Shown here piece after piece: positions 20,825 to 22,130 of a stretch of DNA of 64,000 nt. Source of the stretch: Chryseolinea sp. H1M3-3 (GTDB taxonomy: Bacteria; Bacteroidota; Bacteroidia; Cytophagales; Cyclobacteriaceae); the NCBI RefSeq assembly GCF_029360725.1, contig NZ_JARKMY010000014.1:255201-319200 (forward strand), read 5' to 3'. The notes below the pieces were generated by a model that was given only the letters and a program-made list of their open reading frames with translations, was not told the DNA's origin and searched no databases. How positions within the stretch are numbered: the stretch's first letter is position 1; the number at the start of each line of letters is the position of its first letter. Position numbers and translations under genes: made by a program.

Positions 20825-20899
20825 AAAAAATGATTGAAGATGAATACATAAAGCAAACGATTGTTGGCCAGCAAATCAATAGGATGTCAGAAAGCAGGC

Positions 20900-20933
20900 A
20901 AAAAAAAACCCATCCAGCCATAGGCGGGATGGG
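20900..20933 (-). terminator. Intrinsic terminator after the tRNA-like array
   Basis: Read on the minus strand, CCCATCC pairs with GGATGGG (20909-20915 with 20927-20933). An inner GCC-TAT-GGC stem continues the hairpin after one mismatch, and it is followed by a run of nine T. This is a classic intrinsic terminator for the transcript carrying the three tRNA-like RNAs and separates them from fadD. Confidence 0.85.
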
Positions 20934-20969: not shown

Positions 20970-21137
20970 CTGTAGAGGAAGGAGTCGAACCTTCACGGAG
21001 AGGTTAGGTTCAGAAACCTGATCTTATCTAAGAATTCTTGAGATAAGATCAGGGTGCTTTACTTTATTCCTTTATTCCACCCTCGAGACCAGAGGGCATG
21101 TCTGCCTCCCGATAGTTATCGGGATCAACACCCTACA
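20970..21137 (-). ncRNA. tRNA-like RNA, copy 1 (expanded D loop and variable arm)
   Basis: This minus-strand RNA of 168 nt folds like a class II (Leu-type) tRNA. Acceptor strands TGTAGGG (21137-21131) and CTCTACA (20977-20971) pair with one G-U, and the discriminator base is G. The T arm is GAAGG-TTCGACT-CCTTC. The anticodon-position stem is CCCTC/GAGGG (21096-21092 with 21084-21080) with loop TGGTCTC. This loop lacks the near-universal U33 and would give anticodon GUC. The variable region is 85 nt and includes a 13-bp hairpin (arms 21017-21029 and 21041-21053). Uniquely, an 18-nt palindrome (21107-21124) is inserted in the D loop. A decoding role is doubtful. Confidence 0.6.
21107..21124. 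repeat. Palindrome inserted in the D loop of tRNA-like copy 1
   Basis: TCCCGATA-GT-TATCGGGA is a perfect 8-bp inverted repeat with a 2-nt loop. Copies 2 and 3 have only four or five nucleotides at this place, so the palindrome looks like an insertion into copy 1. Similar CCCGATA palindromes are common interspersed repeats in Bacteroidota genomes. Confidence 0.65.
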
Positions 21138-21181
21138 ATGTTATCCGCGTTTTGCGGTTTGTGTGTGTGTGAGTGTGTTTG

Positions 21182-21335
21182 CTGTAGAGGAAGGAGTCGA
21201 ACCTTCACGGAGAGGTTAGGTTCAGAAACCTGATCTTATCTAAGAATCCTTGAGATAAGATCAGGGTGCTTCACTTTATTCCTTTATTCCACCCTCGAGA
21301 CCGGAGGGCATGTCTGCCAATTTCAACACCCTACA
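21182..21335 (-). ncRNA. tRNA-like RNA, copy 2
   Basis: A 154-nt minus-strand RNA with the same plan as copy 1. The acceptor TGTAGGG (21335-21329) pairs with CTCTACA (21189-21183). The Leu-like D arm reads GTTGAAATTGGCAGAC. The stem CCCTC/GAGGG (21308-21304 with 21296-21292) carries loop CGGTCTC, and the T arm is GAAGG-TTCGACT-CCTTC. The variable region is 85 nt, about four times the normal maximum for a tRNA, and contains a 13-bp hairpin (21229-21241 with 21253-21265). The D loop GG and T loop TTC needed for the tRNA elbow are kept. A 44-nt spacer with a small hairpin separates it from copy 1. Confidence 0.6.
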
Positions 21336-21379
21336 ATGTTATCCGCGTTAAACGGTTTGTGTGCGTGTGAGTGTGTTTG

Positions 21380-21497
21380 CTGTAGAGGGAGGGATCGAAC
21401 CTCCACGGAGCAGTTAGGTCGCCAAAGGCTGGACTTTATCCCGTACTCTCCACCCTCGAGACCGGAGGGCTTGTCTGCCAAGTTTCAACACCCTACA
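21380..21497 (-). ncRNA. tRNA-like RNA, copy 3
   Basis: The shortest (118 nt) and first-transcribed copy. Acceptor TGTAGGG (21497-21491) pairs with CTCTACA (21387-21381). Stem CCCTC/GAGGG (21469-21465 with 21457-21453) holds loop CGGTCTC. The T arm is GGAGG-TTCGATC-CCTCC: compared with copies 1 and 2 (GAAGG/CCTTC), both strands changed together, a compensatory change that supports a functional fold. The variable region is 48 nt, closes with GGAG/CTCC, and has an inner GCC-TTT-GGC hairpin unrelated to that of the other copies. G33 is again present instead of U33. CCA is not encoded, as is usual in this phylum. Confidence 0.6.
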
Positions 21498-21558: not shown

Positions 21559-21586
21559 CAAAGTAACGAATAAACTAGTGGTTCAA
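21559..21586 (-). promoter_or_regulatory. Candidate promoter of the tRNA-like array
   Basis: On the minus strand TTACTTTG (21559-21566) is a one-mismatch version of TAnnTTTG, and a TTG (21584-21586) lies 17 nt upstream. The start of transcription would be near 21552, about 55 nt before copy 3. The region is shared with the divergent Lrp-type regulator gene. Confidence 0.4.
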
Positions 21587-21665: not shown

Positions 21666-22130
21666 ATGACGGAAAATTATAAAGTTGATAATATCGACTT
21701 GAAGATTCTCGAAATTCTCATGCAGGACGCCAAAAAACCATATACAGAGGTAGCGAAAAAGGCTTTTGTATCTGGAGGGACAGTCCACGTACGGATGAAT
21801 AAATTGGAAGAGGCTGGAATCGTGGAGAAAACTACATTAAAGGTTAACTATGCAAAGTTGGGATATGATATTACTGCGTTTATCGGGATATTTCTCCAAA
21901 AAAGTGCCTTATATGATCAGGTGATGGCAAAGCTTAAAGCCATTCCTGAAATAACGAATATCCATTATACCACCGGCAACTATAGCATGTTTACTAAAAT
22001 CCATTGTAAGGATACAAACCATCTGAAAATCGTTTTACACGATAAAATCCAACAAGTTGAGGGAATTGAAAGAACTGAAACAATGATCTCGCTTGAAGAA
22101 AGCCTGGATCGAAGTCTTAACCTGACCTAA
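21666..22130 (+). CDS. Lrp/AsnC family transcriptional regulator
   Basis: A 154-residue regulator with an N-terminal helix-turn-helix (about residues 8-60: VDNIDLKILEILMQDAKKPYTEVAKK) and a C-terminal RAM/AsnC ligand domain (about 70-145) that usually binds an amino acid and drives octamer formation. The HTH is slightly unusual in having a GGTVHVRMNKLEEAGIV recognition region. It lies divergent from the tRNA-like RNA array (168 nt apart) and 137 nt upstream of sufB on the same strand. It could regulate itself, the array or the suf operon; sequence alone does not say which. Confidence 0.92.
   Translation: MTENYKVDNIDLKILEILMQDAKKPYTEVAKKAFVSGGTVHVRMNKLEEAGIVEKTTLKVNYAKLGYDITAFIGIFLQKSALYDQVMAKLKAIPEITNIHYTTGNYSMFTKIHCKDTNHLKIVLHDKIQQVEGIERTETMISLEESLDRSLNLT

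Follow-up and report, generated by a model that had tools for sequence, protein, structure and literature searches.

A covarying tRNA-like RNA family of Bacteroidota with tRNA-Asp-type identity positions that tends to co-occur with GatCAB

Based on comparative analysis of a 64,000-nucleotide stretch of DNA from Chryseolinea sp. H1M3-3 (the window), we found that three tandem RNAs encoded there belong to a covarying RNA family that is absent from Rfam 15 and from ARAGORN calls. The RNA tends to come and go with GatCAB, the amidotransferase that converts tRNA-bound aspartate to asparagine, which suggests a tRNA that serves in making an amino acid and not protein. The reading that we favour, at a probability of roughly 0.55, is an adaptor RNA of tRNA origin that takes no part in decoding and links aspartyl-tRNA synthetase (AspRS) to GatCAB.

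The first-pass annotation of this DNA, made from the letters alone, had described three tandem tRNA-shaped RNAs on the minus strand, with a 7-bp acceptor stem, a Leu-like D arm with GG, a T arm with TTCGA and a 5-bp stem carrying a YGGTCTC loop with G at position 33 and the triplet GUC, and on all these points, lengths included, the sequence agrees (Table 1). The acceptor of the window copies reads TGTAGGG/CTCTACA and the stem in the anticodon position CCCTC/GAGGG, and the 7-nt loops are CGGTCTC in copies 1 and 2 and TGGTCTC in copy 3. Their T loop is TTCGAYY, and the compensatory T-stem change that had been noted between copies is there as G-U to A-U. With blastn, the RNA was found in the window's genome in these three copies only. 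The terminator-like hairpin after copy 3 was missed by a hairpin scan permitting loops of at most 8. For 126 of 196 first copies, the 75 nt upstream contain the exact motif TANNTTTG, which we take to be the Bacteroidetes -7 box consensus, as compared to a mean of 11.5 and a maximum of 24 in mononucleotide shuffles, and 73 of its 144 occurrences begin at a distance of 36-50 nt from the RNA. Palindromes of the type TCCCGATA.CTATCGGGA were seen to occupy loops of several family members, namely the D loop in copy 3 (window 20970-21137) and the variable arm in loci L082 and L131.

Table 1. Features of the RNA locus and of its neighbour in the window; copy coordinates run from T1 to G73.
Feature	Position	Strand	Description
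Copy 1	21497-21380	minus	118 nt, short variable arm; first row of alignment A1
Copy 2	21335-21182	minus	154 nt; variable arm with long distal hairpin CCTGATCTTATCTC...GATAAGATCAGG
Copy 3	21137-20970	minus	168 nt; resembles copy 2, D loop with palindrome TCCCGATAACTATCGGGA
Anticodon-position loop of copy 1	21458..21464	minus	CGGTCTC: G33, G34-U35-C36, U37, C38
Terminator-like hairpin after copy 3	20899..20933	minus	CCCATCC...GGATGGG and T run; read from sequence
Candidate -7 box	21559..21566	minus	TTACTTTG, one mismatch to TANNTTTG
Divergent AsnC-type regulator	21666..22130	plus	154 aa; NCBIfam PRK11179 AsnC; Pfam AsnC_trans_reg

The window yielded no ARAGORN gene and no Rfam 15 match at the gathering threshold, its sub-threshold Rfam hits include no tRNA, and none of the 49 RF00005 matches listed for the genome falls on the locus. 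A known Rfam family, which had been named beforehand as a possible explanation, was rejected, as neither Rfam nor ARAGORN annotates the window copies or the relatives tested in loci L126, L236, L063 and L086. One short relative (L109, genome G218) is called tRNA-Asp(atc) by ARAGORN. The RNA does not have the architecture of a tmRNA with a tag reading frame, and ARAGORN finds no tmRNA in the window. Pair counts and the consensus fold give a cloverleaf with a 7-bp acceptor and with anticodon and T arms of 5 bp and 7 nt. Our searches of open-licence PMC papers found no description of the RNA. As separate observations, ARAGORN calls ten tRNA genes, partly degenerate, in an array of the window's genome (G000:C1:1552523-1554642, L108); a tRNA-Gly among them has a TCCCGATAGTTATCGGGA insert, and the anticodon of another is undetermined. 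In Dyadobacter sp. Leaf189 (L199 1870-2330) a pair of ordinary tRNA-Asp genes is interleaved with a pair of tRNA-Asp-like copies containing extra internal sequence.

Homologues outside the locus, whose absence was to have counted against the earlier reading, were found in numbers. Searching with copy 1 by blastn (E 0.1), we obtained matches in 124 of the 148 genomes sampled from the window's family. A covariance-model recheck of 34 of the 148 (24 without a blastn match and 10 with a weak one) gave strong matches of 95 bits or more in 9 and tRNA-Leu-like matches of 58 bits or less alone in 25, one of the weak matches (36 bits) being cut by the contig start in G087. The RNA is thus present in about 123 of the 148 genomes (114 by blastn alone). 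It was also found in other Bacteroidota and in predicted viral contigs. A pattern scan of GTDB contigs gave at least 119 stretches; 118 of them, all with Bacteroidota-lineage titles, gave a full or partial HMM match and a single one (L125) gave none. Because the pattern required NGTCTC, loop statistics were limited to copies found without it. A model survey of 395 genomes used the stricter filters of Infernal and scored 8 candidates per genome, so that weak members may be missed and RNA absence rests on strict filters. All seven fetched matches of 53-61 bits to model R1 were ordinary tRNA-Leu, and since this holds for matches of about 86 nt and 50-60 bits, the tally of 352/395 is no count of the family.

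The many homologues with covarying stems and a conserved loop that had been named as support were found both in a covariance test and in wider genera. In alignment A1 (40 copies, 29 pairs) 96.4% of the cells were paired compared to 88.3% in shuffles, and covariation was 0.269 compared to 0.135. Both sides had changed in 11 pairs compared to a shuffled mean of 8.1, with 2 of 500 shuffles equally high, in shuffles that ignore relatedness among copies. When the partners were slid by 1-3 columns as a control, pairing dropped to 53-60%. The anticodon stem is near-invariant in these 40 copies; in wider relatives it reads CCGTC/GACGG, CCTCC/GGTGG, CCGCC/GGCGG, CCCGC/GCGGG or CTAGC/GCTAG.

Conserved positions were determined in 79 copies, 40 from A1 (blastn) and 39 from loci L063, L066-L092, L109 and L110 (model or fetched), a set in which at least one locus is counted twice and shared letters are favoured because both searches start from similar copies. 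Invariant in all 79 are U1-A72, G2-C71, U3-A70, G73, U35, C36 and C38, although U3-A70 varies in wider sets (two rows of wider relatives and three viral-contig copies differ). Position 34 is G in 75 copies, C in two, U in one and A in one, and position 37 is a pyrimidine in all (U in 78, C in one). The absence of U33, put forward in the first-pass annotation, holds for the window copies and not for the wider family, in which position 33 is free and U occurs in 46/79 copies; the constant oddity of the loop is the pyrimidine at 37. Each of the 41 ordinary tRNAs in the window's genome combines U33 with a purine at 37, whereas the window copies have G33 and U37. An N73-C74 end without encoded CCA is found in 38 of these 41 tRNAs and likewise in the tRNA-like RNA. 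With Leu-type numbering assumed, the base following G18-G19-C20 is A in 245, G in four and C in two of 251 copies and never U; positions 35-38 were left out of this scoring, as their counts would be circular.

Contrary to what had been supposed, the variable arm is not free to differ. Covariation is seen in its 4-bp base and in its distal stem, and its internal loop, AUAAA/CUAAC, is conserved; the variable region reaches 123 nt, and in many relatives a longer form of the arm has a GGGUUGACCAC motif (by eye). Family members exceed 100 nt, with L109 excepted. Inspection of the relatives' long arms by eye led us to reject a conserved reading frame there, and the idea that D-arm AGAC pairs with GUCU of the loop was rejected because AGAC is missing in 5/40 and 56/136 rows. 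The RNA has no Leu triplet, and G73 stands in all 79 copies in place of A73, the discriminator of tRNA-Leu.

In the available excerpts of PMC9976931, Asp identity consists of G73, G34, U35, C36 and C38, and G1-C72 and G2-C71 are strict in bacterial tRNA-Asp, G1-C72 being said to help to position the 3' end. The same excerpts give U1-A72 as the mark of Asp-tRNA-Asn for amidation and G1-C72 and U20a as antideterminants. The identity set together with G2-C71 is complete in the 79 copies, apart from the four without G34. Instead of the G1-C72 pair and short variable loop of tRNA-Asp, the family has U1-A72 throughout and, except in L109, a long arm; the substrate features for GatCAB, U1-A72 without U20a, are thus present (79/79 copies for the former, 251 under Leu-type numbering for the latter). 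As far as these excerpts go, the family joins the published Asp set with the amidation mark, which replaces G1-C72 of tRNA-Asp.

We scored GatCAB by the GatB_N domain, so that GatB stands for GatCAB. The window's own genome encodes AspRS, AsnRS, GatB, GlnRS and ordinary tRNA-Asp. Among 98 sampled genomes of the window's class, AsnRS was present in all and GlnRS in 93, and GatB was found in 38/38 genomes with the RNA compared to 3/60 without it (Fisher 5e-24; Fisher values given here ignore relatedness). For the 93 genomes with GlnRS, all of which have AsnRS, the figures were 34/34 and 2/59. The three in-class exceptions with GatB and no RNA are G188, G297 and G344, and G188 needs GatCAB because it lacks GlnRS. 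In families f4 and f5, where both states are present, RNA and GatB agreed in 23/23 genomes. In the window's family 80 of the 148 genomes were compared irrespective of GlnRS status (25 without the RNA and 55 with it, 46 of these by blastn alone), and GatB was present in 54/55 with the RNA compared to 10/25 without it (Fisher 7e-9). Overall, GatB was found in 92/93 genomes with the RNA, the single miss (G119) being 60% complete.

Of the 10 family genomes with GatB and no RNA, eight are under 95% complete or in more than 250 contigs, and two (G027, G128) are neither. Fifteen family genomes lack both, among them six with a completeness of 95% or more in no more than 200 contigs (G010, G042, G049, G083, G106, G113), and of all RNA-less genomes of this quality GatB was absent in 6/8. 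Genera g49, g15 and g30 each have genomes with both and genomes with neither; in g5, g6, g46 and g78 the RNA varies while GatB is constant, and in g54 GatB varies while the RNA is constant. On an AsnC-protein tree of 67 genomes, with 11 changes of the RNA and 7 of GatB, six independent pairs on supported branches had GatB changing the same way in about four and the opposite way in none (median p 0.125). As an observation apart, one genome (G147:C1:3333192-3335032) has eleven tandem copies of the RNA, and its two sampled genus-mates (G049, G113) have neither RNA nor GatB.

GatB, GlnRS and AsnRS occur together without the RNA in many genomes sampled from outside the class, including most of f17 and f35, so the RNA is no general reason for GatCAB retention. 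Because of synthetase profiles that looked mixed, the 297 of 395 rows labelled 'same phylum' were excluded from the tests; among them are three genomes with RNA and GatB (f48) and many with GatB and no RNA. According to the available part of a survey of 14 genomes, gatCAB is absent from GlnRS-bearing Bacteroidetes except one (PMC3927822). The accessible part of PMC4206432 counts AsnRS, GlnRS and GatCAB together in 67-68 of 547 genera, 18 of them without Asn synthetase and some of them Bacteroidetes, considers that GatCAB may be vestigial in delta-proteobacteria that also have Asn synthetase, and leaves unanswered why many bacteria with GlnRS and AsnRS retain GatCAB. In the window's class the RNA provides GatCAB with a candidate substrate, and the presence of GatCAB tracks an RNA that is unlisted in Rfam 15.

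The best NCBIfam match of the neighbouring regulator, PRK11179, reached 169 bits, under the cut-off of 227, and the next best family reached 84. AsnC lies upstream in the opposite direction in 97 of 185 partly redundant loci. Among the matches listed, a copy lies beside AsnC in 47 of 83 genomes compared (within 350 bp in 46), and no listed copy lies within 3 kb of AsnC in 36. Of at least 117 loci from the pattern scan 55 have AsnC, 27 of these without SufB and FadD in the sequence examined. In flanked loci fetched from f2, f4, f5 and f48, AsnC is found at 44-171 bp in 16/16, and in those from f8 in 0/5. The divergent AsnC-RNA pair is kept where other neighbours change (the names SufB, SufC and RluD were assigned by eye). 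AsnC (E 1e-40) is absent from 11/148 genomes, none of which has the RNA; because AsnC and RNA adjoin, such joint absence can be an assembly gap. AsnC without the RNA was found in 14 of the 148 genomes, and an asnA-like gene replacing the RNA was rejected by eye in the 11 of these loci with more than 1 kb of upstream sequence, the other three being cut.

Additionally, 24 stretches in IMG/VR match the loop pattern, of which 22 score at least 80 bits (some are near-copies of one another) and 11 have three or more ARAGORN tRNA genes. Position 33, left free by the pattern, is U in 23/23 viral-contig copies checked. At least one contig, L254, has a Por secretion tail domain and is possibly host DNA. 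A phage or plasmid element was rejected, copy 1 having no blastn match in INPHARED or PLSDB, though IMG/VR contigs carry the RNA. As side observations, a second tRNA-like class stands within viral tRNA arrays in L236 (4915-8253, minus), and also in L238, L239, L240, L248, L249, L251 and L252. Its eight copies in L236 have fixed acceptor, D and T arms (AGTCAGG...CCTGACT), hypervariable inserts replace the anticodon arm, ARAGORN calls none of them and two pass the RF00005 cut-off. Two RNA-bearing viral contigs (L239 6467-7363, L253 2174-3070) have QueE-like and QueC genes.

In the reading that we favour, AspRS would read G73, G34-U35-C36 and C38 and attach Asp to the RNA. GatCAB would then accept the charged RNA, as we propose on account of its U1-A72 first pair and the absence of tRNA-Asp antideterminants, and would turn Asp-RNA into Asn-RNA. 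Together with the long variable arm, the pyrimidine at 37 and the absence of U33 from many copies would bar this GUC-bearing Asn-RNA from Asp codons, and the asparagine would be released or passed to another acceptor. Where the genes adjoin, control of the RNA in response to asparagine status would fall to the divergent AsnC-type regulator. The loss of G1-C72, strict in bacterial tRNA-Asp in the excerpts cited above, counts against the adaptor, as do the four copies without G34, the 46 with U33, the 10 RNA-less family genomes that keep GatB and the out-of-class genomes with GatB, GlnRS and AsnRS and no RNA. The first-pass annotation had proposed tRNA mimics with a non-translational role, such as amino-acid carriers, regulators or decoys: the homologues, covariation, loop and lack of Rfam or ARAGORN annotation agree with it, while the role itself we infer, favouring the carrier because of the GatB co-distribution and the Asp-type identity set.

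A further step, which we put forward tentatively and with more doubt than confidence, is an RNA-based asparagine synthetase, composed of AspRS, a dedicated ribosome-barred RNA and GatCAB, regulated by AsnC like E. coli asnA and sustained in its supply by virus copies. An ordinary discriminating AspRS could feed GatCAB in such a system, since the RNA joins an Asp anticodon to a first pair of the Asn/Gln type. If true, a tRNA would have left translation for metabolism in the course of evolution, with loop changes that look suited to keeping Asn away from Asp codons.

An uncharged regulatory RNA or decoy under AsnC control, which would bind AspRS, GatCAB or another protein by mimicry or act through its long arm, would account for the promoter-like motif upstream of many copies, the conserved motifs in the variable arm and the frequent divergence from the regulator gene. 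We hold it to be rather unlikely, since the RNA has retained an acceptor end, a T loop and a G73-C74 3' end like those of the genome's tRNAs and the GatB co-distribution suits a substrate better than a decoy. Charging by GluRS through the NUC triplet, with GatCAB making Gln-RNA, is improbable: although the genome's own tRNA-Glu also has U35-C36, its own tRNA-Gln shares the acceptor start TGT/ACA, and CUC occurs in two f2 copies and UUC in genome G057, G34 and C38 prevail in the family while own tRNA-Glu has U38, GlnRS is nearly universal in the class and the neighbour is of the AsnC type. There is little to be said for a specialised decoding tRNA for Asp codons, as a normal tRNA-Asp is present, position 33 is free and 37 a pyrimidine in contrast to the 41 ordinary tRNAs, and the variable region is very long, even though the triplet is GUC, U33 is kept in part of the family and in all viral copies checked, and the RNA occurs among tRNA genes in viral contigs. 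Tandem tRNA-Leu pseudogenes or a mobile repeat, to which the Leu-like D arm, the scattered copies of some genomes and the palindromic repeat inserted in copy 3 might point, can be dismissed on account of the covarying stems (29 pairs across the 40 copies of A1) and of the loop, which is conserved in many genera, as the first-pass annotation had argued.

Taken against known systems, the adaptor proposed here resembles bacterial tRNA-Asp(GUC) in G73, G34-U35-C36, C38 and G2-C71, but differs in U1-A72, pyrimidine 37, long variable arm and Leu-like D arm, the family loop being CNGTCTC compared to CTGTCAC in own tRNA-Asp. With tRNA-Asn and tRNA-Gln, the substrates of GatCAB, it shares the U1-A72 first pair and co-occurrence with GatB, whereas its triplet is wrong for either amino acid and its loop is unlike that of the genome's decoding tRNAs. 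With tRNA-Leu (class II) it shares the D arm and the long variable arm, but neither the anticodon nor the discriminator nor, except in L109, the size. In E. coli, according to the part of PMC8707732 available, AsnC activates asnA, from which it is divergent, and asparagine weakens the activation; here too an AsnC-type gene has a divergently oriented neighbour that would serve to make asparagine, although this neighbour is an RNA rather than asparagine synthetase A. The tRNA-dependent Asn synthesis of Bdellovibrio, as covered by the accessible part of PMC4206432, likewise combines AsnRS, GlnRS and GatCAB, and as in the proposed route AspRS and GatCAB make Asn on an RNA; its carrier is tRNA-Asn and needs a relaxed, non-discriminating AspRS, whereas a GUC carrier could use the ordinary AspRS.
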